47,469 nucleotides of DNA, taken from contig JAJQFT010000006.1 of assembly GCA_021200975.1 (NCBI GenBank), forward strand, positions 1 to 47,469, given 5' to 3'. The stretch comes from Bacillota bacterium. Its GTDB lineage: Bacteria; Bacillota; Clostridia; Oscillospirales; Oscillospiraceae. Under the pieces are notes generated by a model. That model searched no databases. It was not told the DNA's origin and worked only from the letters and a program-made list of their open reading frames with translations. Made by a program: the position numbers and the translations under genes. This document shows positions 5,427-44,240 of the stretch, in pieces (positions within the stretch are counted from its first letter, which is position 1; the number at the start of each line of letters is the position of its first letter).

Positions 5427-6365
5427 TCAGGCGTCGAAATCCCGCAAATGCTGTAGGGCGCGCGCAAGAATTTCTTCGTCGGTGGTGCTTTCCTCCCGTA
5501 GGAGCCAGTGCATCGCCGCATTACGGCGGAACCATGTGCGCTGTCGCTTGGCGTAGCGCCGCGAGGCGCGCTGCACCTGCGACGTCGCCTCCCGAAGCGG
5601 CTCCTCCCCTTTTATGACCGCAACGAATTCCTTATATCCAATCGCCTGCATGGCCGTGCAGCGCTCCGGTACACCGGAATTCAGGAGGCCGCGGATTTCC
5701 TCCAGCAGTCCCATCTCCAGCATCTGCTCCACGCGCAGGTCGATGCGCCGGTATAGCACGGCGCGGTCGGTAAAGTCCAGCCCAAGCCAAACTGGCGCGA
5801 ATCTCGGCGGAAGCGCGCGGGTGCGCGCGTCGTGGTCGGTGATGGTTTCACCGGTTTCACGATAGATTTCCAGCGCGCGCAAGATGCGCTTGCGGTCGGC
5901 CGCGGGGAGGCGCGCCGCTGCGGCGGGATCCACCGCGCGCAGCTGCTCGCGCATTGCCTCCATGCCGCGGCGATTGGCCTCGGCCTCTAGCTCCGCCCGC
6001 ACGCCGGTATCGGGGATCGGCGCGAAATCCGTGCCTCGGATGAGATTATCCATGTATAGTCCCGTGCCGCCCGCGACAATGGCAGTCTTCCCGCGTGCAA
6101 GAATATCCTCTACGATAGGCGTCGCCATCGCGCAGTAGCGGCTGACGGAGAAATCCTCGTCCGGCTCGGCAACATCGAGCATATAGTGCGCGACGGCGCG
6201 CATCTCCTCCCGGCGCGGCTTGGCGGTGCCAATATCCATGCGGCGATAGACCTGCATGGAGTCGCAGGAAACCACCTCCCCGTCCAGCGCCTCGGCCAAA
6301 GACACCGCAAGCGCGGTTTTTCCGGAGGCCGTGGGGCCAGCCAAGCAAATAAGCCTCGAGTGCAT
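5427..6365 (-). CDS. miaA: tRNA dimethylallyltransferase MiaA
   Basis: A 312-residue enzyme that transfers a dimethylallyl group to N6 of A37 in tRNAs reading UNN codons. The P-loop is GPTASGKTA at residues 10-18. The substrate-specific motif [18 protein letters not shown] follows near residue 34. The tRNA-binding [13 protein letters not shown] and C-terminal AIGYKEF motifs are present, and the end carries the basic QRTWFRRN region. Length matches the family. It begins 10 bp after mutL and is followed by hfq, so mutL-miaA-hfq are probably cotranscribed. Confidence 0.97.
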
Positions 6366-27023: not shown

Positions 27024-27602
27024 CTATTGCTCAAACCCTGTGAAGATTGCGTCCGCTAAGCCGTATGCCACCGCTTCTGCAGAATCCAGAAAATAATCCC
27101 GATCACAATCCTCCGCAATCTGCTGGAAGTCCTTGCCTGTGTTCTGCGCAAGGATCCTATACAGCGCATCGTTGGTCTTCCGAATATGGCTCGCAGTACG
27201 CAGGATGTCAGCCGCCTGCCCCGATACGCCGCCCAAAGCCTGATGAATCATCATCTCTGTATGGGGCGCAATATACCGCTTTCCTTTTGTCCCTGCCGAG
27301 GCTAGTACTGCGCCCATTGATGCAACGCTTCCCATGGCAATCGTTCGGATGTCACAGCCGCAGGTTGTCATGGTGTCCAGGATGGCAAATCCTGCGGTCA
27401 CGCTGCCGCCATGGCTCTGAATCCAAAGTGTAATATCCTCATCGCTGCTCGCGGCGAGCTGGTTGATTTGGCAGCAGATTTCCGACGCCATCGCATCGGT
27501 AATTTCGCCGACAAGGTAGATCCTTCTGCGCCTGTATTCCTCCGAAATGCAGTCGGAAAACGCATATCCCGTGGGGGTCGTAACTTTAATAGCAGGTATC
27601 AT
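27024..27602 (-). CDS. ClpP-like serine protease carried by the conjugative element
   Basis: 192 residues, ClpP family. The complete catalytic triad is visible: Ser95 in GSVASMGAVLA, His120 in EMMIHQALGG and Asp169 in CDRDYFLD, with the same spacing as E. coli ClpP (Ser97, His122, Asp171). The N-terminal processing loop is shorter and different from housekeeping ClpP, and there is no adjacent clpX. It begins 12 bp after the traG stop and runs in the same direction, so it belongs to the mobile-element operon. ClpP paralogues next to type IV coupling proteins are known cargo of Clostridial conjugative elements; their role is unclear. Confidence 0.88.
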   Translation of the reverse strand: MIPAIKVTTPTGYAFSDCISEEYRRRRIYLVGEITDAMASEICCQINQLAASSDEDITLWIQSHGGSVTAGFAILDTMTTCGCDIRTIAMGSVASMGAVLASAGTKGKRYIAPHTEMMIHQALGGVSGQAADILRTASHIRKTNDALYRILAQNTGKDFQQIAEDCDRDYFLDSAEAVAYGLADAIFTGFEQ

Positions 27603-27614
27603 ATATTTCCCTTC

Positions 27615-28930
27615 TTAGTGCTTGTTACCAGAATCGGTAAAGAATGAACTGGGTCTTCTTCGGCGTCTGCTCCAGCTGAGATAATCGGCCTCGTCTGTAT
27701 AGGTCATCTCGGGCTCGGGGTATCTGCCAGAAATCCTCTTTCTGTCTCCTGTTGATGCAAACGGGATGTGCGCAGCTCTCCTCTCCACATCCAGAGCATA
27801 ATCGGCAGCCGAGTAGCGCAGGACATCGGTTGGCGTCGTGCACCTTTTCGCGGCAGGTCGTCCCCCGATAGCATAGGCCTCAATGCTGGGAAGCATGGTG
27901 CAAAAGCGGATATTCTCGGACAGATTCATGTAAATCGCTTCCTTATAATTCCAAGCCTTCTCCAGCGTCATCAGCTCCGCCTGGGAGCACAGCGGTTTTT
28001 CCGAGCCATCTGGAGTAATGCGGGTTCTGCCCAGCTTGGCTTCCAGCTCGCTCAGCAGTGAAAGCTCCGTGGAGCCCATGTAGAGAATGGATTCGCAATT
28101 CGCCAGCAGCGCCTCAGGATTGGCATATCGCTGCCGCAGAAGCGCCATGCTCTGAATGCAGAGGTAGTAACGAATATTTCGTGAGCGATGAGTTGCCAGC
28201 GCCTTGTCCATATCTGGAATAGGGATGCTTGCAAATTCATCTAGGATGAAATTCATCCGTGTTTGGAGCTTGCCGCCATTACGTAGATAAGCCTTGTTAA
28301 TCAGAAAGCTCTGAATTTGGCGGAGGATAATCCCCAGAATGGGGTCAGCGGTGGAGGTCGTGTCATCCGTCACCAGATACAGCGCGGTTTTCGGCTTCAG
28401 CAGATCCTCCAGCGTGAAGCTGCTGTGAGAAACCATTGCGGCCAGCCTGGGGTTCTGTCCAAACGGAGCCAGCAAGCTGGAGGCCGTGATGAGGATGGAG
28501 CGGAATGTGTTTTCGGCCGAGCTTAGGCATTGCTTCAGAGCAGCTTTTGCGGTATTCTCAGGCATGTACGCAAGCAGTTTTTGCACCGAATCTGCGCCAT
28601 CAATCGTATTGTAATCGCCCCAGTTCACGACATTGACCTGCTCGATTTGGGGATATGCGTCCATCATAATCGCGCCAGTACCGTTCAGCCATAATACTGC
28701 GGTCTCTGTCCAAAAAATATCCTTTGTCATAGCTCTTTCTTTATCGGCGAGCGTATTGACAATATCCGACAGGAGGCTCAGCCCTTTTTCCATGTCGCCG
28801 CTCCTGCAAACCTCCGCCGGATGGCGAAGGATATTGAAGCAGTCCTTATCCATTGTGCGAAAATCCAGACAAAGGACCCTGTAGCCATGGCTCTGAAGGA
28901 ATCCCGATGTTCGGTTGAACAGCTTTTGCG
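27615..28930 (-). CDS. traG: Type IV coupling protein (TraG/VirD4), exon 2
   Basis: C-terminal 438 codons of a T4SS coupling ATPase, which brings relaxase-bound DNA to the conjugation channel. It begins right after the group II intron with ...QKLFNRTSGFLQSHGY and continues LDFRTMDKDCFNILRHPAEV, a typical TraG motif. Walker B is FILDEFASI; ALATHRSRNI follows. The C-terminus is basic (SRRRRRPSSFF). Joined to exon 1 (31617-31926) after intron removal it gives 1626 nt, exactly 542 codons including stop. Without splicing the exon lacks a start; an internal ATG at 28853 would yield a protein without the Walker A region. Confidence 0.9.
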
Positions 28931-29018
28931 ATAGGTAAGCGTTTGAAGTAATCTCCGGCTTTTCCCCCGCTTAGCACCGTGCGCGAACCTTTCGATTCAC
29001 ACGGCGCCCCATCAATGT

Positions 29019-30833
29019 TTACCTATATTCGAGTTTACAGTTGCCAGCCAACAGCCGGAATTTGTTGAGTTTTGTTATGTTGAGCTTGCAGTTTTTCAGC
29101 CTGTCCAGATATTTTTGGATGGTTACCGGGTCGGTTGCATGAATGAGCTTATGAATATCCCCCGTCACCAGCGCCAGATTGGAGTAATTATCCTTTCCAC
29201 CGCTGGACTTTGGCGTAATGTGGTGGACTTCCATATCTCCCAACAGCAGAGGCTCTTTGCAAATTGCACATTTCCCACGTTGAGCGACATAAAGGGAAAT
29301 GCGGTTGTCGTTCAACTCGGTACTCTGCCCCTGTATGGGATGCTCCATGAGGCTTTGCAGAATAATAGGGCTGATTGCCTTTTGCATCTCATGGATTTTG
29401 GCCCGTCCCTTTTCCGAGTAATTGCAGATGTTGGGGGAGAAGCACATGGGCGGCGTGGTCTTCACTCCGTTAATTGGAAAGAGCGCCAACCCCGCCACGT
29501 AGAATATTTTCCCGGTAAAATCACCGTAGAATTGCTGGAATGCCTGACTTCGCAGGCCGGTCTTACTGCGATGGTTCTTTGTCCTGCATAGGAGTGCCTT
29601 TCTGACGTCAAAGGCGATACGGTCAAAGTCGAGGTATACATTGGTTGCGATTTTGTAGTATTCATGCAGGCCCAGCACCATAGCGTTGAACTGCATCACG
29701 CTCCACTGGTTTGGCTCCCTGCCGATTCTCCCAATGGCTGTGCGTATGTTTTCCCTGCACTTTTTCTGCGCCTTGTCTGCCATGTGTGATTTCAGCACCC
29801 ATTTTCCGCTTTTAGGGCGGAGCTTCAGCTTAAAGCCGAGAAAGTCTGAGTATCCCTTTTTCAGATTGACGATTTTGGACTTTTCCGGGCTGATTTCCAG
29901 CCCAAGCCGTTCCTTCAGCCACATTGTTGTTGCCGCAAATATTTTCTTAGCGTCGCCACGGCATTTACAGAACAGCTTGAAGTCGTCCGCATACCGCACT
30001 AAATACACCCGTTTCAGCGTCCCGTTCCCTTTGTAATGAGGGCGGCTTCTGTACCGTCGCAGTTGAGGAAATTCCTCCCACTGGCTGGCAATCCACCAAT
30101 CCAGCTCATTTAGCACAACATTGGATAACAGTGGGCTGAGAATACCTCCTTGTGGCACGCCTTTTGCCGGAATACCCTCTCCCTGAATAGGTGCTTTCAA
30201 CATTTTGGACAGGACGCATAATAAACGCTTGTCCTGTATGCCCAGCGTCCAGAGCTGTTTCAGCAGTTTTCCGTGGTTCACGTTGTCAAAGAAGCCCTTG
30301 ATGTCCACATCCACCACATAGCGGCATTTTGAGATATTTACCAGATACATTGCCCTGGCCACTGCATGATGGGCGCTTCGGTTTGGGCGAAAGCCGTAGC
30401 TGTGCTTGTAGAATTTCGCTTCACAGATTGGCTCCAAAATTTGCTTGATACACTGCTGAACAATGCGGTCTTCCATAGTGGGGATGCCCAGCGGGCGCAT
30501 ACGCCCATCCGGTTTTGGGATTTCTACGCGGCGGACTGGATGGGGATGAAAATTTTCCAGCCGTTTCCGCACATAGGCAATCAAATCCTCCGGCTGGTTC
30601 TCTCCCATTTCAACGATGGTGGTTGCGTTTACGCCTTTAGTTTTACTGCCCTTATTTTTCTTAATGGCGCGATAAGCCAGCAGGATATTCTGCTCGCTGG
30701 CAATTAGCTCCATTAAGTGTGTGAAAACTTCACCGCGCTGACTTTTTGCGTATAATTCGTCAAATAAGTCTTGGGTGCTGTAATACTCATTATTTCTGAG
30801 CGATTGCTTTTTCTTTGCTTTGTTGGCTGCCAT
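29019..30833 (-). CDS. ltrA: Group II intron reverse transcriptase/maturase with HNH domain
   Basis: 604 residues. The RT domain has the group II order: RRVEIPKPDGRMRPLGIPTM, the RT3-type DVDIKGFFDNVNH, GVPQGGILSPLLSN, and the catalytic YADDFKLF (about residue 290). The maturase X domain follows. The C-terminus is an HNH endonuclease zinc-type domain (CAICKEPLL, MEVHHITPKSSGGKDNYSNL), giving target-primed retrohoming capacity. The protein splices its own intron and mobilises it. I preferred the ATG at 30833 over a GTG at 30845 because the only plausible Shine-Dalgarno (GGAGTG) overlaps the GTG. The frame is intact with all catalytic residues. Confidence 0.95.
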   Translation of the reverse strand: MAANKAKKKQSLRNNEYYSTQDLFDELYAKSQRGEVFTHLMELIASEQNILLAYRAIKKNKGSKTKGVNATTIVEMGENQPEDLIAYVRKRLENFHPHPVRRVEIPKPDGRMRPLGIPTMEDRIVQQCIKQILEPICEAKFYKHSYGFRPNRSAHHAVARAMYLVNISKCRYVVDVDIKGFFDNVNHGKLLKQLWTLGIQDKRLLCVLSKMLKAPIQGEGIPAKGVPQGGILSPLLSNVVLNELDWWIASQWEEFPQLRRYRSRPHYKGNGTLKRVYLVRYADDFKLFCKCRGDAKKIFAATTMWLKERLGLEISPEKSKIVNLKKGYSDFLGFKLKLRPKSGKWVLKSHMADKAQKKCRENIRTAIGRIGREPNQWSVMQFNAMVLGLHEYYKIATNVYLDFDRIAFDVRKALLCRTKNHRSKTGLRSQAFQQFYGDFTGKIFYVAGLALFPINGVKTTPPMCFSPNICNYSEKGRAKIHEMQKAISPIILQSLMEHPIQGQSTELNDNRISLYVAQRGKCAICKEPLLLGDMEVHHITPKSSGGKDNYSNLALVTGDIHKLIHATDPVTIQKYLDRLKNCKLNITKLNKFRLLAGNCKLEYR

Positions 30834-31616
30834 AAGTCGGCTCACTCCAATTTCTTGAAGGGTTTGCCTCTCTTAGTCATACTCGAACCTTATGCAGAAT
30901 GATTTTACTCACTTGAACTGTAACTTCGATTTATTGTAAAACACTGACTGGCGGCTATCCCTCCACGGCTTTCTTAGCTCCGCTTCATTGGTACTGTGCC
31001 GCCACATTCACCAGCGCAAGGCAGGTTGTATCCGAAGATTTTTCCCTGCCGCCACTTCATAGAGGTCAATCTCTCCGCGTCGCTGGCTTACCACGTTCCG
31101 ATTGTCCTATCCATGTTCAGCACCCGTAGGTCTTCTCTATAAGCCTGTCTGCTTGCCGCCGCCTGTAACGGCGCAGGGACTTTCATAAAGGGCGAGTTTT
31201 ACTTATCCCCACAGACCTCACACGATGGTGAGATTGGCCCGTTCGGCCAATACCCTATTTAGACCCGTACAATCAAGAATACGTCTCCGCCGTGCTGTAA
31301 CACAGTGGATTCTAACCATAGATGCTTACTTGGACTCCCGGCCTATCACGCACTCGACCACCTCTGGTTCGCTGTTCCTGTACCGCTTTCACGTCTTTAG
31401 GGTGCGCTCTCAGCCGACTTCACCGAGCTTATGACACTTTCGCCCTTGACCGCGTCCATGCCATTCGGAGTATTAGAGCAGGCGTTTCCGGGCGTTACCC
31501 CTTCATTCCACCTGTCAGACAATCAGTTCTATGAAACCTTTTCAGAAGCTCCTTTCAATCTCCTGCTTTTTCTTTTGGCTCCACGCCCAACCTTTTCAGT
31601 TAGGAACGTGTCGCAC
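30834..31616 (-). ncRNA. Group II intron ribozyme domains I-III (5' non-coding part)
   Basis: A 783-base stretch without a supported gene. Short open frames here are unsupported. It is bounded by the intron 5' splice site and the maturase start and should fold as domains I-III plus the start of domain IV. Exon-binding sequences were not assigned. Confidence 0.8.
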
Positions 31617-31926
31617 CCCCTTTCGGGTCCGTTATCACCATATTTTCTTCAGCCAGTCCTGCTGTAGCGATGAGCGGCATGAATCCGCATAAGCTTTTCT
31701 TCATTCCGCTGGCAGCCAAAATTGCTGTGTGCCCATCTGAGGCGTCTATATAAGCGGTCTTCCCGTCGGAAATGATGGGCAGGCCACCAGCGGGAATCTT
31801 TTTGGAGCCAGATACTTCCACCCGCGCCATGCGCTTTTTTACCTCCTCGGTCGCGGTCCAATAGGTTAAAGGTGTCGTGTAGGTGTATCCTGCGTAAAAC
31901 GCCTCATATTGCTTCTTTTTCTCCAT
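31617..31926 (-). CDS. traG: Type IV coupling protein (TraG/VirD4), exon 1
   Basis: First 103 codons plus one base of the coupling protein. It starts at 31926 after GGGAGGT and ends ...VITDPKG|G at the intron boundary. It lacks the N-terminal transmembrane helices of classical VirD4, so the product resembles soluble TraG-like proteins. The nucleotide-binding loop AASGMKKS is a degenerate Walker A (Gly positions replaced, Lys-Ser kept). The start overlaps the upstream gene's end by 23 bp, implying translational coupling. If the intron is not removed, translation terminates a few codons inside it. Confidence 0.88.
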
Positions 31927-32674
31927 ACCATACCTCCCTTTGGCTATCAAGAGCCTTCATAAGCCTCTCATATTCTTTTTGTGGCAGTATGTATTTCACG
32001 ATTGGTTCTCTTTTGGCAAAGAAGTCGGCGAGCTTGCTGGCGTTGATTCTATTGCCGCAGTATCCGCGGAGATCTTGCAGGAGGGCAAAGACCGTGTCTT
32101 CGCAGAAGCCCTCCTCATCCATGAGCTTGCAAAGCAGCTCCTTGACAAGGGAGTCACAATAAATGGATTGCTTTTCCAGCATTGTATCCACTTTTTTCGG
32201 TGCAGGAGGGTTTTCTTCTGGTTCCTCCACATCGCAGGGGATATCACGAAGAAGAATTGTAAGCGTCTTGCTGACCAGCGCCTTTGCCTCCCGCTGGTTC
32301 TTGTTGTCCGCGAAGAAAATATACTTCCAGCAATCGCTCATGTCCGCCAGGAATTGCAGCGTGATTTGAAAAAATGCCTCCTCGTGCCCGAGGTAGTTGG
32401 ACAGGTCGATCAGGATATATCCGTGGAAAGTATCTCTGCGGCCAGCCGCTTCGGCCGCTATCCCCTGCAGCCGTTTGAGCTCCCCGAAGCTCTTATCAAA
32501 TGGGGCTGCATAACGCAGCTCGAAGCAGAAAGAAGGCTTGTTCCCCTCAAACCATTCTGGGTGCTGCTTCTTTGCCTCAGAAACGATTGCCTCCGCGCGC
32601 GCCTTTTGCGGCGCGCCGTTACCTAGTAATAGAACATTTTCAGGCTGATGATTTCCATAATGCTGAATTTCCAT
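31904..32674 (-). CDS. Unknown protein of the conjugative element
   Basis: 256 residues, soluble, no signal peptide. It starts MEIQHYGNHQPENVLLLGNG and contains YILIDLSNYLGHEEAFFQITLQFL-like alpha/beta segments and a C-terminal helical, charged region (KLMDEEGFCEDTVFALLQDL). The early VLLLGNGAPQKA and later HGYILIDLSNY have the spacing of a P-loop-like fold but lack a GKS/T, so I do not call an ATPase. The ATG follows GAAAGGGGG. It overlaps traG by 23 bp, which ties it functionally to the conjugation module. I do not recognise the family. Confidence 0.7.
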   Translation of the reverse strand: MEIQHYGNHQPENVLLLGNGAPQKARAEAIVSEAKKQHPEWFEGNKPSFCFELRYAAPFDKSFGELKRLQGIAAEAAGRRDTFHGYILIDLSNYLGHEEAFFQITLQFLADMSDCWKYIFFADNKNQREAKALVSKTLTILLRDIPCDVEEPEENPPAPKKVDTMLEKQSIYCDSLVKELLCKLMDEEGFCEDTVFALLQDLRGYCGNRINASKLADFFAKREPIVKYILPQKEYERLMKALDSQREVWYGEKEAI

Positions 32675-32714
32675 TTTTACGTTCCCCCTTTCAATCCTCT
32701 ATGCTTCGATAGGC

Positions 32715-32897
32715 CTACCCCGTTGGCGGTGCCCGAACGATATTCAGCCGTCGTTCGTCGCTGCGGATAAACTCTACGCCATATCCGCCTGGCGCTGCCG
32801 GGAAACTTTCTTCGATTCTGCGTATCAAAATGCCCTGCCCTTTTCTATAGGCAGCAGTTAAGGCTCGGCAGTCATTGGATGCTTTGTATTTGTTGAA
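32715..32897 (-). pseudogene. Possible 3' remnant of another element gene
   Basis: On the minus strand an open stretch of ~60 codons without any start codon reads ...TAAYRKGQGILIRRIEES and ...GYGVEFIRSDERRLNIV before TAG at 32717-32715. It overlaps the 3' end of the TPR gene by 26 bp. Composition looks protein-like, but neither start nor family is evident. It could be a truncated gene C-terminus or chance. Confidence 0.3.
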
Positions 32898-33642
32898 TTA
32901 CGCCATTTAGGAGATTTTGCAGAAGGATATCGTCCGGATACCGTTCTACATGCTGTCTCATAATTTCGTATTCTTCCAGCAAATACCCCCGTCGCTCCGC
33001 CGAATTTGAGGAAATCTGTGCCATAATGGCTAAAGCAATTTCATATTCCCGGTAGCTGTCGTATGTCTTTGACTCCTCAAAAATGGCTTTACGCAGCTCA
33101 TGCATTTTCCGATAATAGCCCATTTGGCTTTCCCGCATGGATTCCGCAACATCGCCGAGATTTTCATAGGTTTCGGCAATTGCGCGGCGATCTGCAATTG
33201 CTCCCGTCTGTTCTGCTATTTCTTCCTCCAGCTCCAAGCATTGGGTAAGGTACCGGATGGATCCCGACGGATCCTTTGCATCGGCAGCAATCCGGCCAAG
33301 TCTCTTATAAGCCGCCGCAAGCGCGCGGCGGGCTTCTACCGTGCCGGTCTGCTTTGCAACGGCTTCCCTATGCGCGAGACTCTTTGTATAGTAGTATTTT
33401 GCAGATGCCCGTTTGTTCCATTTAAGCGCGCCGCTTCCAAGCATTTCATAGCTCGTTGCCAGAATGCAGCGGTCTTCTGCCGCCCCAGTTTCTGCCACAA
33501 TTGCCTCCGCCAGGGCGAAAGCTTTGTCATAGTAGCTCCTCGATTGCCGATGATCCCGCTCCGCTTCCGCCGCATTGCCCAGCCTCCAATTTTCCTCGAA
33601 TTCCTCCCGCATTTTCTGCACCATGTTTCCTTCCGCCTGCAT
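32872..33642 (-). CDS. TPR-repeat protein
   Basis: 256 residues made almost wholly of paired helices. At least four tetratricopeptide-like units of ~40-45 residues are visible, each with A-x-x-x-Y/L-G...A..Y patterns: SRSYYDKAFALAEAI, ATSYEMLGSGALKWNK, AAAYKRLGRIAADAK and AETYENLGDVAESMRE, each followed by a linker with ETGA or QTGA. TPR proteins mediate protein-protein contacts; a cytoplasmic role is likely, because there is no signal peptide. I preferred the ATG at 33642, preceded by AAGGAG at about 11 bases, over in-frame ATGs upstream (33771) that lack ribosome-binding sites. Confidence 0.65.
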   Translation of the reverse strand: MQAEGNMVQKMREEFEENWRLGNAAEAERDHRQSRSYYDKAFALAEAIVAETGAAEDRCILATSYEMLGSGALKWNKRASAKYYYTKSLAHREAVAKQTGTVEARRALAAAYKRLGRIAADAKDPSGSIRYLTQCLELEEEIAEQTGAIADRRAIAETYENLGDVAESMRESQMGYYRKMHELRKAIFEESKTYDSYREYEIALAIMAQISSNSAERRGYLLEEYEIMRQHVERYPDDILLQNLLNGVIQQIQSIQ

Positions 33643-33771
33643 TTTTCCTGTGCTCCTTTCCTTCCTCTCAGGGCTTGTCTTTGCCATGAGGCGAGATTTT
33701 CGGTCAATACGCTTGAAGCGATTAGAAGAGATCCTGTCTCCAAGGCGCAAAAATTCCCCTAAAAATCGCAA

Positions 33772-34274
33772 AGAGAAAATCGACTATGCGCATAGGGGAA
33801 TACAATACATATCAATTTGGATGGGTAATCGGGTAGCCGGGGATGGCGTCCTCGCGGCGTGATCGCTCAATGCAATGCTGAACGCGCCGCCGTCCCATTG
33901 GCGTCTAAAAAATATAGACCCGCACCAGTCCAGATTCAAACGTATCCCATCTGTGCGAGCCTTTCTTTCGCGCGCGCTTTTCAAGCTTTTATTTTATTGG
34001 ACAAGCGCGCAAGCCGGTACAGAACTGTACCTGTCCATCTCTCCTTTTCTTCAGCAGCCTTCCCTCCTCTTTTAACCGTGAAAATCCGCGCAAAAACGCA
34101 ACGTTTGCACTATACCACGATAATTCAAAATCGACAAGAGGAAAAAATGATTTTTTTGACTTTTTTTCGCTTCATTAATTGCAGCAGGAAGTAATGATTA
34201 CTTTTTCTACACTTCGGTCTCGCTTCTATTGTAATGTTACATATTTTAAGGCGACAATCACAAATTCTACTTGA
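33772..34274. other. AT-rich intergenic region between the mobile element and CRISPR locus
   Basis: About 500 bp (630 from the TPR start chosen) with no supported gene. Base composition turns clearly AT-rich between ~34080 and 34290, unlike either flank. A TTGACA at 34271-34276 has no -10 box at normal spacing. No att-like direct repeat was identified. It probably contains the junction between the mobile element and the truncated csm6. Confidence 0.5.
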
Positions 34275-34766
34275 CAAATACCACATATCTTTCTGGGCTA
34301 TTCGGTCGAAGAACTGTGCTGCAAGGATGGTGAGGGTGTGTACAAGTTAAATCAGAAGGAAATTGAGGAAAAGGATGCGGACCTGTGGCAGCATATCAAC
34401 AAGAGTTACGGAGGCAACTTCCGTAAATCCCCCCTCAGTGCAGACAATTTGCTAACAATTCTGGAGTATTACAAGGACACTGTGAAGACACTGACACCGG
34501 AGAAATACGAGGAATTCGAAGCCTTACGACACTTTGAGAAGAAGGTGCGCAATTTGGCAGCTCATACCATCACCTCCATCTCTAAGGAAGATATCGAAAA
34601 CGCCTGTGGTGAATCGCCGGATGCCTACCTGTATATTCTGCACCACCAGTTCGAAAATCTCTACAGCCAGGAGCTAAATCTCAGTCAGGAGCCGGAGGAG
34701 AAGCATAAGCTATGGGACTGCTATCGCAAGATGAACGAGGCCATCATCCAGGAGCTGGATCGCTAG
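34275..34766 (+). pseudogene. csm6: Truncated csm6: HEPN ribonuclease domain only
   Basis: The open frame starts after a TGA at 34272-34274. A GTG at 34338 could start a 142-residue product, but protein-like sequence (FLGYSVEEL, KDGEGVYKLNQ) extends upstream of it, so the 5' end has been lost. The remainder matches the C-terminal HEPN region of Csm6. The catalytic R-x4-H is present as RNLAAH in HFEKKVRNLAAHTITSIS at about residues 68-85 of the GTG-started frame. Full Csm6 is ~400 residues with an N-terminal CARF domain that binds cyclic oligoadenylate; that domain is absent. It precedes the CRISPR array and csm operon on the same strand. Confidence 0.75.
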
Positions 34767-34963
34767 TGGCTCGTCCGGCGCGAACCGCCCGTCTCGCTAG
34801 TGCGTTTTTCCGCCTCTGTGGGGCGGTTCGCGTCGAAAAAATGGGCACTTTTCCAAAAAAACATTGATATGTGCCCTGTTCTGCGGTATTTTTTCTCAGC
34901 GGCTTCGGCAAAAACGACGGGATGCATTCCTCCTTCCGGCAGCTTTTTTGTGCAGAACTGCTG
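34767..34963 (+). promoter_or_regulatory. CRISPR leader region with long hairpin
   Basis: The 197 bp before the first repeat contain a perfect 12-bp inverted repeat, CGCGAACCGCCC (34779-34790) with GGGCGGTTCGCG (34821-34832), separated by 30 nt. A/T-rich tracts follow (34836-34910). The leader assignment comes from its position upstream of the intact repeats. No clear promoter was identified. Confidence 0.5.
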
Positions 34964-35120
34964 GAAGCAACTCACGCCCCGCAAGGGGACGGAAACATTT
35001 TCAGGTTATTACATACAAAATCGATTCTTGAAGCAACTCACGCCCCGCAAGGGGACGGAAACTGGCTTCAGCAATCTGCGTTAAAATATCGCCCATGAAG
35101 CAACTCACGCCCCGCAAGGG
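34964..35120 (+). CRISPR. Short CRISPR array, 2 spacers
   Basis: Two full 33-bp repeats (34964-34996 and 35030-35062) begin GAAGCAACTCACGCCCC and end GGGGACGGAAAC. The third (35097-35120) matches for 24 bp and then diverges, so it is the degenerate terminal repeat. Spacers are 34997-35029 (33 bp) and 35063-35096 (34 bp). The repeat ends ...ACGGAAAC, a plausible 8-nt 5' handle, and the degenerate copy is on the right, so transcription is plus-strand, into cas10. The inner CCCCGCAAGGGG dyad fits a Cas6 hairpin. The repeat type matches the III-A genes that follow. Confidence 0.93.
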
Positions 35121-35212
35121 CAAGGAGGAGCGCAGCTCCGGAAGAGCCGCTTGACGGTGGACGGGGACTTTGCCTTGTGGCTTCTGCGATGTGCGATTGC
35201 ATGAAAATAATA

Positions 35213-35228
35213 CACCCCGCGAGGGGAC
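35213..35228 (+). repeat. Possible fourth, strongly degraded repeat
   Basis: CACCCCGCGAGGGGAC resembles the repeat core CGCCCCGCAAGGGGAC with two changes, 93 bp after the last array unit and just before the cas10 start. It may be a relic of a longer array or a chance dyad. Confidence 0.35.
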
Positions 35229-35254
35229 ATCCCAACAACAAGGAGGGAACGCAT

Positions 35255-37454
35255 TTGCAAAACAAAACTGCAGAGCTTACCCGCGCCTGCCTGCTGCGCA
35301 CCGCCGGGCTGCCTGTGCCGATATCCTCCGCTGAATCAGAGATTATCGCGCCGGCTCAGCGGCTGGCCGCCGGCGGGCAACCGCTCACCGAACCGCCCCG
35401 GCGGCTGCTGCGCCCGGTGTTCACGCACCTGAATGGTGAACATGGCGGCTCTGTGCTGGAGCCGGAGCCGCTGAGCGGCATTGCCCAGATGCCGAAGAAA
35501 GAAGAAACGGCAGTCTACCGCCCCGAAGCGGTGCAGGCCCGGCTGGACGAGGTACGAGCTGGGTGTGCTAAGCTGCCCCATGGAGAGGACGGCATTGCGC
35601 CGCTGCTGGGTCTGCTGGAGAAGCAGCTGACCAATTTACCCGCTCCGGTGGAGGGCAGCGACGACATTTCCCTCTATGACTACTGCAAGCTCACGGCGGC
35701 CATCTGCAGCTGCATAGCGCACAGAGAAGATCCCGCCACCCTGGATCGGCTGCAAAAAGAGGGCTGTTTTTTGCTCTATTCAGCGGATTTTTCCGGGATT
35801 CAGAGCTTTATCTACACGGTACATACCCATGGCGCTCTCCGGGCTCTTCGCAGTCGCTCCTTTGTGCTGGAGCTGCTGATGGAGCATTACATGGATGAAC
35901 TGCTGGATGCCTGCGGCGTCAGCCGGGCCAATCTGCTCTACAGCGGCGGCGGCCACTGCTACCTGCTGCTGCCCAACACCGAAACCGTAAAAACCGCCTT
36001 GACCGACTGGAATCGGCGGTTCAACGACTGGCTGGCGGAACAGTTCGGTACCCGTCTGTTTCTGGCGCATGGCTGGGCAGAGTGCACCGGGGACGAGCTG
36101 CTGAACATCCCAGCGGAGGATAGCCCCCAAAAGGACATGTTCCATCGGGTATCCAGCGAGGTTTCCCGGCACAAGCTCCATCGATTCTCCGCCAACCAGC
36201 TGCGCCGCCTGAACAGCGGTCGGGCCGACGGCACCGACCGAGAGTGCAAGGTCTGCGGCCAAGCAAATGTGGTTCGCGGGAGCAACGGCTCCGACGGCGA
36301 CCGCTGCTATTGGTGCAACCTGTTTGAGACCATTTCCGGCGGTCTGTTACAGGAGGAACAATTCTTCTTCTGGGTGGGAGACCTGCCCAAAGGAGAGCGC
36401 AGCTTCTCCCTGCCCACGGTGGAAGGGGCGATCGGCATGGCGCTGACAAATGGGGCTCAGGTGGATGCTCGGCTGCAGGCGGGGCGACGGCCCCGGCGGA
36501 TCTACAGCGTTAACCAGTACTGCCCCACCCTTCCCCGCTGCACCATCCTCCACATAGGGAACTACGCCAGCGCCACGGATATGGAGGCATTGGCCGGGGT
36601 CAGCGAGGGTATCCCGCGCATCGGCGTCTGCCGGATGGACGTGGACAATCTGGGTCAGTCCTTTGTGGCGGGCTTTGAGCGACCCGATGAACCGGGCGCC
36701 GCCGAAAAGAGCCGATATGTCAGCCTCGTACGGACGGCGGCCTTCTCCCGGCGAATGAGCCTTTTTTCAAAGGCTATATCAACAGCATCCTCTCCGGCGC
36801 GTATGGCGAAAAAAAGCCGCTGAACGTGACGGTGGTGTACTCCGGCGGGGATGATGTGTTTCTGGTAGGAGCCTGGAACGACGCCATCGAAGCCGCCAGC
36901 CGCATCCGAGCCGCGCTGCGGGAATACACCTGCGGGGCGCTGACCATCAGCGGCGGCGTAGGCGTGTTTCAGGCGAAATTCCCGATTCGGGTGGCCGCCG
37001 CCGAGACGGCCAGACTGGAGGACAAGGCCAAGGGGCTGGAGCACCCGGAGAAGGACGGCATCGCCCTCTTCGGGGCGGAAACGGAGCATTGCTATCACTG
37101 GGATGTGTTCCTCCAGTCCGTCCAGGGGGAAAAGCTGGGTCTGCTGGAGTCGTTCTTCGGCGGCGAGGATGCGGATCGGGGCAGCTCCATGCTCTACAAC
37201 ATTCTGGATCTGCTGCGCCAGGCGCAGGCGGATACCAGCAGGATGCCGCTGGCCCGTTATGCCTATCTGCTGTCCCGGCTGGCACCGCCCAACAGCGCAC
37301 CGGACAAAAAGAAAAAGGCCTATAAAGCCTTTTCAGAGAAGATGTATCAATGGGGCTGGAGAAGGAGGAGCGCGGACAGCTGCTCACCGCCATCCAGCTC
37401 TATGTGTACCTGCACCGAAAAGCGGGATCAGCAGCAGAAGGGAGAGCCAAGTAA
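35255..37454 (+). pseudogene. cas10: cas10/csm1 with HD region deleted and two frameshifts
   Basis: Csm1/Cas10 is the large subunit of the type III-A complex. The TTG at 35255 follows AGGAGG by 8 bases and gives QNKTAELTRACLL, where family members continue HDIGK. Here it jumps to RTAGL and AESEIIAPAQRLAAG, the end of the HD region, so ~80-100 residues with the HD nuclease residues are missing in frame. The middle is intact, including a four-Cys zinc site (CKVC, CYWC). At T6 (36762-36767) one base is missing; the next frame continues FFKGYINSILSGAYG and holds the cyclase motif YSGGDDVFLVG. At G4 (37352-37355) a second base is missing; the corrected end is GLEKEERGQLLTAI...GRAK, stop at 37454, overlapping csm2 by one base (TAATG). 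Confidence 0.9.
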
Positions 37455-37936
37455 TGTCATGGAATAACAACAACTATGGGCACGGCGGCGGTCACGACCA
37501 GGGGCGCGGAGCCCGCAACGGATATAAGGGCGGCAGAAGTGACGACCAGAACGCGCCCCAGGAGCCCATCGTCGCAAAGGAGCTGCCTGCCGACTATGTA
37601 GACGCGGCGGAAAAGGTGATGCAATCCAATTACCAGCAGATCACTACCAGCAAGCTGCGCAACCTGCTCAGTCTGTTTGTCGACACCTATAACGCGGAAA
37701 CCCTTCTCACCGACGACAGGCTGCAGCCCGCCAGCATAAACGCCCTGACCATGGCGCGAATCCGAATGCTCTACGAGGCAGGGCGCGACCCAAAGGTGAA
37801 AGGCTTTATTAAAGTTGCCGAGCTACTGCCCTACCTGAAGGACATCGGCGATAGCCGGGAAAAAATGATCAACTACTATCACTATCTGGAGGCTCTGGTG
37901 GCCTACCACAGATACTATGGCGGAAGGGAGAACTGA
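37454..37936 (+). CDS. csm2: Csm2, small subunit of the type III-A complex
   Basis: 160 residues. An N-terminal Gly/Asn-rich, disordered leader (MSWNNNNYGHGGGHDQGRG) precedes the helical Csm2 core (about residues 45-160). This has SNYQQITTSKLRNLLSLF, the most conserved family segment, then ARIRMLYEAGRDPKVKGFI, and ends in HYLEALVAYHRYYGG. Csm2 subunits line the crRNA-target duplex along the Csm3 backbone. The ATG overlaps the corrected cas10 stop, and csm3 begins 4 bp after its stop. The frame is intact. Confidence 0.93.
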   Translation: MSWNNNNYGHGGGHDQGRGARNGYKGGRSDDQNAPQEPIVAKELPADYVDAAEKVMQSNYQQITTSKLRNLLSLFVDTYNAETLLTDDRLQPASINALTMARIRMLYEAGRDPKVKGFIKVAELLPYLKDIGDSREKMINYYHYLEALVAYHRYYGGREN

Positions 37937-37940
37937 CACA

Positions 37941-38626
37941 ATGACTTACGGTAAATTGATGATCTGCTGTGAGCTGGAGGTTCGCACCGGCATGCACATT
38001 GGCGGCAACAGCGGCTTTTCCGCCATTGGTGCAGTGGACAGCCCGGTGATCCGCGACCCCCGCACCGGCGACCCCATTGTGCCGGGCAGCAGCCTGAAGG
38101 GGAAGCTGCGCACCCTGCTGGCGCGCAGCTACAGCTTCGCCAACGGAAGGATAGAGCAGCTGCCGGAGATCGAGCAGGATGACGCGCGCATCAAGCGTCT
38201 GTTCGGCGCTGCCCAGCCGAAGGTAATCCCCTCACGGCTCCAGTTTGCGGATGCCTTTGTCACCAACAAGGCGGAGCTGCAAAACGTGGGCTTGACAGAG
38301 GTCAAGACAGAAAACGGCATCAACCGCAGAAACTCTGTGGCCAATCCCCGCCAGGTGGAACGGGTGGTGGCCGGAACCAAGTTCGCCGTCCGCATCGTGT
38401 ACAACATCGTAGACAGCGCACAGATTGCGGAGGATATGGATACCCTGGCCGCCGGGTTCAAGCTGCTGCAAATGGACTACCTGGGGGCCACGGCTCCCGG
38501 GGCAGTGGCAGGGTCAGCCTGCATGGGTTCCAGGTGAAATCCTTTGAAGAGGAATTTGATGACGCCGCAAACCAAGCGGAGGAGCAGTTCAAAGGGGTAG
38601 AGGATTATGAATTACTGCCTGTATAA
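37941..38626 (+). pseudogene. csm3: csm3 backbone subunit with C-terminal frameshift
   Basis: RAMP protein that forms the Csm backbone and cleaves target RNA. Asp33, in AIGAVDSPVI, is at the same position as the catalytic Asp33 of Streptococcus thermophilus Csm3, and the RAMP loop PIVPGSSLKGKLR is present. The frame is open to ...LLQMDYLG (near 38487). One base is then missing in a G5 run (38483-38487), so the apparent product ends at TGA 38535-38537 after ~15 aberrant residues. Correcting it gives GHGSRGSGRVSLHGFQVKSF and an end at TAA 38624-38626, including the Gly-rich loop expected of Csm3. The restored 3' end would overlap csm4 by 20 bp. Confidence 0.9.
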
Positions 38627-39581
38627 GCTGCAATTCGACTCCCCTGTCCACTTTGGCCCCTCCGACACAGCCCTTTCCCTCTACTCTTCGGAGGAACACT
38701 TCTGCGCGGACACGCTGTTTTCCGCCCTGTGTCACAGCGCCCTTTCCCTGGGCGGCTCGGCTCAGGTGGAGGCGTTGTGCCGGTGGGCACGGGAGGGTAC
38801 GCTGCTGCTCAGCGACGGCCTGCTGTGGCAACGGGAGCAGCTTTATCTCCCAAAGCCCTGTTGGAACGGCAAATTCTCTGAGGAGCTTCCCACCCGGCAG
38901 CGCAAGGCGCTGAAAGCGCTGAACTGGGTGCCTGTGTCGCAGTTTGCGGCGTTTACCGCATCTCTCCATGGCGGCGATGCCTACAACGCCTCACAGCAAT
39001 CGGAGATCGGGCGGCACACCGAAGTGGAGCGAGCCAGGGTCAGCCGCCAGCAGGAGGACACAGAGCCTTACTATGTGGGCGCGTTTGCGTTCAGCGAGGA
39101 CACCGGCCTGTACGTCCTGGCGGGATGCGGGACGGAGGAGCAGCAGTCCACGGTGGCAAAGCTGCTGGATGGGCTGGGCTGGACCGGCATCGGCGGCAAG
39201 GTCAGCTCCGGTTACGGAAAGTTCCATGTTGCCCAGACCATTCCGTTGTCCGGAGCCTGCACTGGGGACGCCCGCCGGCTGTATGACCAGCTGAACGATG
39301 GGGTCGCGCCGCATCAGCTGCTACTGACGACCAGCCTGCCCCGGGAGGATGAGTTGGATGCCGTGATGGAACACGCCTGTTGTCAGGTGGTGCGTCGAGG
39401 CGGCTTCGTTCAACCAGGTGTCGCTTCCAGCACAGCTCAAAAGAAGCAGACGCAATATTTTCTGGCCGCAGGCGCGGTGCTGGAGCAGCGCTTTTCCGGC
39501 GACCTGTTCAATGTGGGCGGCAGCGGAGCCACGCCGGTTTTCCGCTACGCGAAGCCCATGTTTCTGGGGGTGGAGATATGA
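38607..39581 (+). CDS. csm4: Csm4, crRNA 5'-handle binding subunit
   Basis: 324 residues. The RAMP (Cas5-like) protein opens NYCLYKLQFDSPVHFGPSD, followed by SLYSSEEHFCADTLFSALCHSA, the typical Csm4 beginning. The central Gly-rich loop is GLGWTGIGGKVSSGYGKF at about residues 190-207. Csm4 binds the 8-nt 5' handle of the crRNA and contacts Cas10. The frame is intact. The ATG lies within the corrected csm3 end, and its stop overlaps the csm5 start by 4 bp (ATGA). Confidence 0.93.
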   Translation: MNYCLYKLQFDSPVHFGPSDTALSLYSSEEHFCADTLFSALCHSALSLGGSAQVEALCRWAREGTLLLSDGLLWQREQLYLPKPCWNGKFSEELPTRQRKALKALNWVPVSQFAAFTASLHGGDAYNASQQSEIGRHTEVERARVSRQQEDTEPYYVGAFAFSEDTGLYVLAGCGTEEQQSTVAKLLDGLGWTGIGGKVSSGYGKFHVAQTIPLSGACTGDARRLYDQLNDGVAPHQLLLTTSLPREDELDAVMEHACCQVVRRGGFVQPGVASSTAQKKQTQYFLAAGAVLEQRFSGDLFNVGGSGATPVFRYAKPMFLGVEI

Positions 39582-40684
39582 AGGAACAGAACCATTTGCG
39601 GGTGTACGACCTGACTCTCACTGTCCAGTCCCCCCTCTTTGTAGGCACAGGGCGGAGCCTGGCCAAAAACGAATATCTCTACGACCCCAACCGGGGGAAG
39701 GTCTCCTTTGTGGATGAGCAGGCATTCCTCTCCCTGCTGGCAAACCGGGGGCTGGTGAACAAATACGAGGAATATATCCTGTCGGGAGATACGTCGCTTT
39801 TTCGCTTTTTACGCAATACCTGTGGTTTGAGCCCTAGGGACATCGACCAAATTGCGCCCCGTACCATCCAGGCTGGAAATGCCATGGGCGAAAACGGGAA
39901 TAAGGCGCAGATCTATTCCTTCCAGCGCAGCAGCGCGGGTCGCGCCTATATCCCCGGCAGCAGTCTGAAGGGTGCGCTGCGCACAGTCTGGCTGGCTGCC
40001 CGGATGCTGGAGGAGGAGAATCATTCTGACCGGCGGTTTCATCAGCCGGATCCCAACAGGGCCAACAAGAGACGTCCCACTAACCCGATTCCGGAAGAGA
40101 ACTATGTCAGCCTGCTAAACTGCAACGAAGAGCGGAGAAGCGACGCGGTAAACAGCATTTTCCGTGGCATCTCCGTCTCCGACAGCGAGCCGATCTCCGA
40201 CCGGGCGTTTATCCTATGCCGAAAGTGGGACATTCATCCCAGCGGCGGCGCTCACAGCATTAACCTGATTCGGGAGTGCGTTCGGCCCGGCACGACCATC
40301 CGTTTCCATGTGACGCTGGATCAGTTCCTGCTGAACCAGCGCATAACCGCAAAGAGCCTGATGGCGGACATTGCCATTTTCGCACAGTTTTACCGGGAGC
40401 ATTACCTCTCCCATTTCACTCTGCCCGAACATGCCGTTGACCCTCTCAATGACCGCTGTCTGTTCTTGGGTGGCGGTCCCGGCCTGTTCTCCAAGTCGCT
40501 GGCCTACCCCTACTGGGGAGATGACGATGCGCTGAGGGATGTCAGCGCATTCCTGAACGCCTTTTTCCCGCAGCACAAACACGACAATGACCTTGATCGG
40601 GGCATTTCTCCCCGGACGCTGAAATATACCGAGTACAACGGCCTGCTGTATCCTTTCGGCATTTGCGAGGTATCCTTCCAATGA
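39578..40684 (+). CDS. csm5: Csm5, crRNA 3'-end subunit
   Basis: 368 residues. RAMP protein with HLRVYDLTLTVQSPLFVGTG at the start and the RAMP/Csm5 motif YIPGSSLKGALRTVW at about residues 120-135. Csm5 caps the distal end of the Csm filament and assists crRNA maturation. The ATG overlaps the csm4 stop and its own stop overlaps the cas6 start, so csm4-csm5-cas6 are tightly coupled. The frame is intact. I rejected a longer upstream start overlapping most of the csm4 3' end. Confidence 0.93.
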   Translation: MKEQNHLRVYDLTLTVQSPLFVGTGRSLAKNEYLYDPNRGKVSFVDEQAFLSLLANRGLVNKYEEYILSGDTSLFRFLRNTCGLSPRDIDQIAPRTIQAGNAMGENGNKAQIYSFQRSSAGRAYIPGSSLKGALRTVWLAARMLEEENHSDRRFHQPDPNRANKRRPTNPIPEENYVSLLNCNEERRSDAVNSIFRGISVSDSEPISDRAFILCRKWDIHPSGGAHSINLIRECVRPGTTIRFHVTLDQFLLNQRITAKSLMADIAIFAQFYREHYLSHFTLPEHAVDPLNDRCLFLGGGPGLFSKSLAYPYWGDDDALRDVSAFLNAFFPQHKHDNDLDRGISPRTLKYTEYNGLLYPFGICEVSFQ

Positions 40685-41442
40685 AGCAGTATCGCTTTTT
40701 ACTCTCCAACCGCGACCAGCCAGAGGCACGGATACCGGCAAGTCAGGCCTACGCCCTCTATGCGTGGCTGCTGTCCCAACTGCCGGAGGAGGTGGGAGAT
40801 GTTCTCCACCAGCAGGGGGAGACGCCGCTAGCGCAACACTTGCATTATGACTTCAAGAAAAAGGAAACCATTTGGATCCTGACATTTCTGGCAGACTGGC
40901 TAACAGAGGCCGCAGAGCCTGCCTTGTCAGGGATTTCCTGCGTTCCGCTACATAGCGGGCCGCTGTATGCCCAGCTGCTCTCTTGCCATGAGGTACCGTC
41001 TGCCCCGGAACTGATCGAGCAGACGCGACAGATCAGCTTGGAACGCTATACTACATGGAACTTGCTGTCTCCGGTATCCTTCCGCCAGAATAATCGCTAT
41101 GTCATTTTCCCTCAGGAGCGACTGATTTTACAAAGTTTGATTGCCAAATGGAACTTGAGCTTCCCTAAGTACTCTCTGGAGGATGCCGACGCATTCCATG
41201 CATTGGAGGCCGGGATCCGTATTGTGGACTATCGTCTACACACCTGCCGTTATTCTCTGAAGAATACCAAAATCCCTGGTTTTTCTGGCTCCATGACCAT
41301 GGAATCCCGTCTCCCTGCCCCCTTAGAGGAGATTTGGAAGCTGCTGACCCTCTTTGCCCCGTACTGTGGGCTGGGTATCAAAACCACATTGGGAATGGGT
41401 GGCGTACTGCCGCTTTTCAACGATAGCTCACCAGCATTCTAA
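40681..41442 (+). CDS. cas6: Cas6 crRNA endoribonuclease
   Basis: 253 residues with two ferredoxin-like RAMP halves. The C-terminal Gly-rich loop GLGIKTTLGMGGV (about residues 231-243) is the Cas6 hallmark. It would cut the array transcript within each repeat, leaving the ACGGAAAC-type handle. The start is fixed by the ATGA overlap with csm5. A candidate catalytic His is not certain; His residues lie at about 52 and 55 (HLHY) and further on. The frame is intact. It is the last gene of the locus; no cas1 or cas2 follows. Confidence 0.9.
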   Translation: MKQYRFLLSNRDQPEARIPASQAYALYAWLLSQLPEEVGDVLHQQGETPLAQHLHYDFKKKETIWILTFLADWLTEAAEPALSGISCVPLHSGPLYAQLLSCHEVPSAPELIEQTRQISLERYTTWNLLSPVSFRQNNRYVIFPQERLILQSLIAKWNLSFPKYSLEDADAFHALEAGIRIVDYRLHTCRYSLKNTKIPGFSGSMTMESRLPAPLEEIWKLLTLFAPYCGLGIKTTLGMGGVLPLFNDSSPAF

Positions 41443-41510
41443 TAAAACTTATGAAATCTTGCCTAGAATGTCAATAGTTGGGGCAGCGGGAAATAAGAAA
41501 AGATTCCTGT

Positions 41511-41536
41511 CGTGCCGGGGCGAAGGCTCCGGCACG
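41511..41536. terminator. Hairpin between convergent cas6 and peptidase remnant
   Basis: CGTGCCGG (41511-41518) with CCGGCACG (41529-41536), a 10-nt loop, then ATTATTTATAT on the plus strand. It is likely the end of the csm operon transcript. Confidence 0.6.
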
Positions 41537-41537
41537 A

Positions 41538-41837
41538 TTATTTATATATAATTTTCATATACTCATGTATTACAAAATAATCGGCGCTATCGCTTCCTAT
41601 GCTCTTTCCTTCCGTGGCTGACCAGCCGCCCCACACATACGGAGTACCAGACGCGGCGATTGCCACGGCTTCGTCAATGAACCGCTGGGCGTAGTCGTTC
41701 ACATAATCGGACTCCGCCTGCACTTGCTCAAAGACCATGCCTGTAGAAGCAAAACAGCTAATGGCCATGACGAGTGCCATAAACAACGCAACCTGTCGCT
41801 TAAACCAGCCATTAGCTTTCCATGTGCTTGTGTGCAT
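41538..41837 (-). pseudogene. Truncated NlpC/P60-type secreted peptidase remnant
   Basis: A 99-residue frame with a signal peptide (KRQVALFMALVMAISCFAS, then VQA). A domain start typical of NlpC/P60 (C40) cell-wall peptidases follows: FIDEAVAIAASGTPYVWGGW. At the point where the family has DCSG with the catalytic Cys, this frame reads SDSADYF and ends ~15 residues later. The catalytic Cys, His and the remaining ~80 residues are absent, and no other frame restores them. The ATG at 41837 follows AAAGGGGA. It is either a broken gene or a short secreted protein of other use. Confidence 0.6.
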
Positions 41838-41910
41838 ATTTTGATGTCCCCTTTCAATGCTTGTCGCATCACAATTTTTCCTGAATAGTATAGAAGAGCC
41901 GCTCAAATGA

Positions 41911-43308: not shown

Positions 43309-44240
43309 TTAGCGCACGCAATCACCGAGAGGTTCGTTTTGGGCGTTTTCAAGATATTCCCGCAGAGCGGGGTACGCGGCCTGTGCGTCGCGGCAGCCCT
43401 GCCAGTACCAGCGGCCGAGCTTCTCCATGTCCCGCTCGAGCTTCGCTGCCGACCATGTCACGCTGGGCGCAATCACAAAAACGCGCCCGGCATCCTCCAG
43501 TGTCTGCAGCTCGTCGCACTCGGCATTGTAACGGCGGTGCGACCACGAGAGCTTTTCGGCGAAGGCGGGATAGTTCCGGTAGATTTGCAGCGACAGCGTC
43601 TCCTGCTTCTCCGGGTCGGGGTAACGGAAGTCCCGGTGGCGGGTGCGGATGACGAGGATTTTCTCATATCCCTCCTCCATCGCCCAGCGGTAGGGAATGT
43701 GGACGCAGCAGCCGCCATCCAAGCAGGGCTTACCCTCCACATACACGATTTTTGACACAAAAGGCATGGAGGCCGAGGCCTGCACGCCCAGAAGAACGTC
43801 GGAGCAGTTCGACCTCTCCCAGAATTCCGGCTCGCCGGTTTCCAGATTCGTCGCCACGGCGACAAAACGGCGGGTAGGGTCGGCAAAGCGCGCCTCGTCC
43901 AGCGCTTCAGGCAGGTGGCGCAGGCAGAAATCGAAGTTGATGATACCGCCATACTCCGGAAATGCCGAAAGCTGACATAGCGCGGGTCGTTCCGCAGCTC
44001 CAGATTGACGCGCGCCGAGCGACCGATTTGCCCGGAAATATAGTTGATGGCGCTCAGCGCGCCGGCGGAAACGCCGACGGCACAGGCCATATTGATATCC
44101 TTCTGCATCAGCACATCCATCACGCCCTGCGCGTAAACGCCGCGGAATGCGCCGCCCTCAACGGCGAGACAGCCCGGCGTAACGCGCGTGCCGGCGCGCC
44201 CGGCAGGGAGCCGATTCATACCGGAATATACCTTACTCAT
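43309..44240 (-). pseudogene. Patatin-like phospholipase, frameshifted
   Basis: N-terminal frame from 44240: CLAVEGGAFRGVYAQGVMDVL gives the oxyanion GGxRG-like motif, and VGVSAGALSA contains the nucleophile Ser in GxSxG. The frame is correct to ...DPRYVSFRHF near 43965. One base is missing in the GG at about 43956-43957; the correct continuation REYGGIINFDFCLRHLPEALDE is in the next frame. That frame carries the catalytic Asp in CLDGG and ends at TAA 43311-43309. So the Ser-Asp dyad is split between frames and the gene as sequenced is not functional. Family members are acyl hydrolases of the RssA/YjjU type. The start overlaps the upstream transporter stop (ATGA). Confidence 0.85.

Follow-up and report, generated by a model that had tools for sequence, protein, structure and literature searches.

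In type III CRISPR systems whose Cas10 lacks the HD nuclease domain, the outputs left are RNA cleavage by Csm3 and cyclic oligoadenylate for Csm6. A published survey recorded a recognisable HD domain in 65% of type III-A loci (PMC11229360), so that its absence is common. Here we describe an HD-less type III-A (Csm) locus that likely stopped working only recently. It lies in a stretch of DNA (the window) that covers bases 1 to 47,469 of a contig of 52,714 bases, from an assembly of 1.89 Mb that is 97.6% complete. Family searches name every gene of a plus-strand operon, csm6–array–cas10–csm2–csm3–csm4–csm5–cas6, at ~34,293–41,442 (Table 1), and the type III-A gene set, cas10/csm1 with csm2–csm5, is present. 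Two genes, cas10 and csm3, are frame-broken and csm6 is reduced to its HEPN half, while the remaining cas genes are open.

Table 1. Positions of the locus features and the neighbouring block in the window
Feature	Position	Strand	Evidence or remark
Neighbouring block: ClpP, VirD4/TraG-like T4CP, group II intron, two genes without assigned function	27024..33771	-	ORF scans
csm6 3' remnant, HEPN domain, CARF half missing	34293..34766	+	PF09659, TIGR02672
Promoter-like -35/-10 before array	34864..34892	+	intergenic stretch conserved with L001
CRISPR repeat 1	34961..34996	+	weak CRISPR-DR10 match, below gathering score
Spacer 1	34997..35026	+	no protospacer found
CRISPR repeat 2	35027..35062	+	repeat search
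Spacer 2	35063..35093	+	no convincing protospacer
Degenerate terminal repeat	35094..35129	+	81% identity
Repeat-like hairpin just 5' of cas10	35210..35232	+	last repeat of G127 (L117) in same place
cas10/csm1 fragment A, 522 aa, HD-less, ends in wrong frame	35255..36823	+	TIGR02578
cas10/csm1 fragment B, GGDD half of palm 2 and C-terminal part	36826..37467	+	TIGR02578, other frame
csm2, open	37454..37936	+	PF03750 E 5.3e-22
csm3, broken near 38486, last ~40 residues lost	37941..38537	+	TIGR02582 E 2.3e-52
csm4, open	38607..39581	+	TIGR01903 E 5.5e-63
csm5, open	39578..40684	+	TIGR01899 E 1.6e-19
cas6, open	40681..41442	+	PF10040 E 1.8e-16; Cas6_IIIa E 1.5e-45
Terminator-like hairpin after cas6	41509..41538	+	site count in region not above shuffles

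Among GTDB contigs we found one orthologous locus, L001 (Clostridiales bacterium C.4_4, JAJQBR010000011.1), which is likewise HD-less and has the identical gene order from csm6 to cas6 but, unlike the locus in the window, has every gene whole. The two Csm4 proteins are 80% identical, and nucleotide identity across the genes is 75–86%. Csm4 matches occur in three of the 199 genomes searched as relatives, and Cas10 matches at 1e-30 in nine of the 394 genomes of the order, the genome itself being counted in both cases. Synonymous divergence from L001 (34293–41442) is uneven, lowest in csm3 and csm4 (~0.47) and highest in cas6 (1.24) and csm6 (1.8), a pattern that suggests mosaic exchange of sequence.

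Alignment to a complete III-A relative, a check proposed in an earlier note on this DNA, exposed the lesions in cas10 and csm3. In cas10, internal one-base frame-breaking differences from L001 lie near 36763, 37352 and 37422, the last touching the final residues only; the gene is thus frame-broken as the earlier note had held, albeit with three such differences rather than the two it counted. In csm3 there is a single internal one-base difference of this type, near 38486, in agreement with the one frameshift read there before (these counts leave out gaps at the extreme ends of the cas10 and csm3 alignments). The genes that had been called intact, csm2, csm4, csm5 and cas6, are all open with no net frame change inside: csm4 aligns gap-free, the gaps in csm2 and csm5 sum to whole codons, and cas6 differs in length near the gene end only. 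The window contains no one continuous Cas10 bearing the GGDD cyclase motif. Fragment A covers positions 64–547 of the 753 in TIGR02578 (in the frame read from 35177), and fragment B, with GGDD in this second frame, covers positions 564–736.

A search with fragment A scored 8000 candidates, of which 601 passed and the best 120 were listed. After the window's own protein, the best matches among those listed were P0002, P0003 (the Cas10 of L001), P0004 and P0006 (58–77% identical, 708–738 aa), together with the partial P0005 (79% identical over 67%). No near-identical second copy was found among the 120 listed of 601 (the next being 75–79% identical). When 18 of the listed Cas10 proteins were placed in a tree with fragment A, the latter grouped with P0002, P0003 and P0005 (support 93) inside a larger clade (97). 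The HD domain is absent from the window's Cas10 in an alignment with ten relatives (A1), but its columns are also missing in P0002, P0003, P0004 and P0006, the closest full-length proteins among those listed. Most of them are missing in P0008 as well, while P0007, P0009, P0014, P0058 and P0079 have HD columns (a Pfam HD domain is listed for the last four, not for P0007). Since these closest full-length relatives, that of the intact L001 among them, are HD-less too, the absence was most likely inherited, and while the earlier note was right that the domain is missing, its reading of this as a step of decay is not supported.

The adaptation genes give a similar picture. Searches for Cas1 and Cas2, which the earlier note had missed at the locus, detected neither in the window's 97.6% complete assembly nor in the genome of L001. 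Six of the 12 genomes tested yielded no Cas1 (the window's, that of L001, G127, G460, G414 and G343), and in the other six it was found (G052, G333, G319, G213, G489 and G736); Cas2 was found in none of five tested (the window's, that of L001, G127, G460 and G414), in a search whose control was positive in seven of 14 known genomes. The absence of both genes thus looks inherited rather than a product of decay, as the earlier note had taken it to be. Counting against an inherited absence of Cas1 is G052, a genome of the same genus with a Csm4 match, in which Cas1 is present; the lineage may have lost Cas1 relative to part of the genus, but outside the recent breakage of this locus.

Csm6 is made up of a CARF sensor and a HEPN RNase, of which the window contains the HEPN half alone. 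The remnant matches PF09659 (E 2.7e-14, profile positions 74–193 of 193) and, under the family cut-off, positions 311–433 of 433 in TIGR02672; its reading frame is open from a GTG at 34338 and it retains R-x4-H, which we take to be the HEPN motif. Homology to the closest Csm6 relative begins at ~34293, just past an in-frame stop at 34272, although weaker alignments extend upstream to 34188 or 34104, through this stop. The Csm6 CARF family was absent from the window's assembly in a family search that detected it in all four relatives tested, and the Csm6 of L001 as query matched only the remnant in this assembly, which bears out the earlier description of csm6 as a remnant (a search with PF22206 misses the known Csm6 of L001 and is hence uninformative on Csm6). 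The L001 protein, full-length at 448 aa, belongs to a different Csm6 branch: when the remnant was placed in a quick tree with 24 of 120 listed Csm6 proteins, it grouped with P0126–P0128 (support 92), apart from L001 Csm6 and P0123, which fall together (98). P0123 and P0002 are probably encoded on one contig, both contigs being 115,694 in length. The end branch of the remnant is 0.59, compared with 0.29 for P0126. Judged from these trees, the mismatch with the Cas10 relatives would mean either that csm6 was exchanged or that the remnant is misplaced through fast change.

The array is, as first described, a two-spacer array, with two good repeats and one degenerate one. No further array with this repeat was found elsewhere in the assembly (allowing up to 2 mismatches). 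With cas6 open, the repeats may be processed by Cas6. Searches of the spacers against phage gave matches only at E of 2 or more; of four spacer words of 18–20 nt sought in viral contigs, one gave a single match, which agrees with the spacer at 24 of 31 positions and is unconvincing. The intergenic stretch before the array is conserved with L001, aligning with a score of 62 where 100 shuffles reached 20 at most. The array of L001 has six repeat-like units in place of our two-spacer arrangement; at 6143–6558 of L001 these form two tandem three-repeat modules, each having two spacers and an aberrant final repeat. We also considered whether the hairpin before cas10 could be a regulatory element of a new sort. 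This is unlikely, as G127 carries the last repeat of its array at that place, and as local alignment of the cas10 leaders of the window and L001 matches no more than 14 nt, around the ribosome-binding site; the hairpin is probably what is left of the final repeat of the array.

The observed breaks could reflect real decay or faulty sequence. We consider it unlikely that the frame breaks of cas10 and csm3 stem from errors in the assembly consensus, leaving the csm6 truncation as the only real lesion in an otherwise complete Csm complex. In keeping with such errors, all four indels (three in cas10, one in csm3) have a homopolymer of at least 4 no more than 8 nt away, as do 20% of background positions; csm2, csm4, csm5 and cas6 are open; and dN/dS against L001 is still low in seven cas pieces (0.11–0.24; 0.31 for the csm6 remnant, where synonymous sites are saturated). 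The window's Cas10 has 29 unique substitutions up to residue 503 (P0002 13, P0003 21, P0004 40) and an end branch of 0.16, compared with 0.08–0.13 in P0002–P0005. Low dN/dS and this modest acceleration therefore give no sign of long relaxed evolution, and the purifying selection still visible in the alignments would fit either a recent breakage or assembly errors behind some of the indels. However, conserved genes of the same genome are rarely broken: a homology-based test, run on a genome sample as 93 comparisons over 33,635 aa, yielded two frameshift candidates, and none in nine comparisons (3,812 aa) of the window with G018 (two in 87 in the opposite direction). The internal stops listed in this test numbered 31 in the genome sample and three in the window against G018. 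With L001, two sites were found in the cas genes versus 0.11 expected (P 0.006), in a comparison that is uneven in that G018 is more distant than L001 and that frames of shorter length were admitted. These two sites are in cas10 and csm3, and a third arises through an antisense open frame; at the upper 95% background rate, P for the enrichment is 0.06. A codon model made four frameshift calls in a 480-kb sample and two in the window, in cas10 and a patatin gene (P 0.06 over the whole window; for a 10-kb stretch picked after the fact, two versus 0.08 expected, P 0.003). The patatin-like phospholipase gene (43309–44240, minus strand) is frameshift-split, with positions 1–70 of the Patatin profile in one frame and 151–183 in another. 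The local enrichment of frameshifts favours real decay, without being decisive, and we rank such decay, which we regard as likely, ahead of the unlikely assembly errors. Counting against decay, the csm6 remnant keeps an open frame and its HEPN motif. That the cas10 and csm3 breaks at homopolymers are reversible slippage switches, in a population with on and off versions of Csm, seems to us very improbable. Hardly more probable is a system that still works, with Cas10 produced as a pair of fragments or through frameshifting, and with a HEPN-only protein acting without CARF. In favour of this, fragment B has a GTG two bases past the stop of fragment A and the low dN/dS of 0.11; against it, the palm domain is where the split falls, rescue would be needed at four separate frame changes, and the closest full-length Cas10 relatives among those listed are unsplit.

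If the locus has decayed, the question arises of what began it. The earlier note had placed an insertion or rearrangement at the start of the loss, and the csm6 break does lie near a block that bears a group II intron and a T4CP gene (the nearest gene of the block is ~520 nt away), with a dip in G+C (42% at 34000–34499; ~51% to the left and 52–60% to the right). However, insertion alone does not explain the state of csm6, because its 5' CARF half was not found in the assembly, and no repeats of at least 18 nt flank the block (searched from a 14-nt exact seed, to which short target-site duplications are invisible). For the adjoining conjugative element of the earlier note, in which a relaxase, an integrase and a T4SS ATPase would be expected beside the coupling protein, the 20 selected ORFs scanned gave only T4CP and ClpP as markers, and no relaxase or integrase. 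That an inserting mobile element cut csm6 and began the decay we think rather improbable. The VirD4 coupling protein is closest to the CD1115 family, below its cut-off, and one of the two genes without assigned function has weak TPR matches. Interrupting the VirD4/TraG-like gene is a group II intron that carries an RT/HNH protein (28926–31531, minus strand). When 80 other genomes of the genus were searched, 12 had a T4CP match at 1e-20; the best is that of G010, where the T4CP gene is followed by one for ClpP. Eight same-genus loci (2.8–17 kb) around an EamA gene contain neither block nor cas genes; what they have in common with the window is EamA plus one or two further genes of the right flank. 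A short minus-strand frame (41541–41906) with a weak NlpC/P60-like match (E 0.03) ends ~100 nt from cas6 and is perhaps a truncated gene.

For the likely decay of this locus we propose the following course. In intact relatives Cas10 has no DNase domain, and, as the protein families suggest, binding of target RNA would take effect only via RNA cleavage by Csm3 and signalling to Csm6, with the Cas10 palm producing the cyclic oligoadenylate that Csm6 senses. Loss of the csm6 sensor half would have removed the sole signalling effector that Csm6 searches found, and probably lifted selection on the remaining genes. Small homopolymer indels could then have become fixed, splitting Cas10 before GGDD and removing the C-terminal part of Csm3, with the array, cas6 and structural subunits persisting as presumed relics. 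In a lineage without an HD nuclease, losing Csm6 signalling would thus be a plausible reason for the collapse, provided that the lesions came in this order. Immunity has probably been lost; this loss and the order of the lesions are both inferred. The earlier conclusion that most immunity is probably gone, with csm6, cas10 and csm3 damaged, agrees with this.

Taken together, this is a type III-A CRISPR locus, apparently broken recently and otherwise ordinary. It offers an example of an HD-less type III lineage in which the entire complex may become dispensable once the sensor of Csm6 is lost, and of how absences common to intact relatives (HD, Cas1, Cas2) can pass wrongly for decay. Besides L001, the closest counterparts are the nuclease-deficient, cyclase-positive Cas10 type III systems covered by the survey (PMC11229360): like the window's lineage, they combine a missing HD domain with a cyclase motif and a Csm6 effector. 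The locus in the window differs from them in having its cyclase motif in a separate frame and a Csm6 without its sensor.
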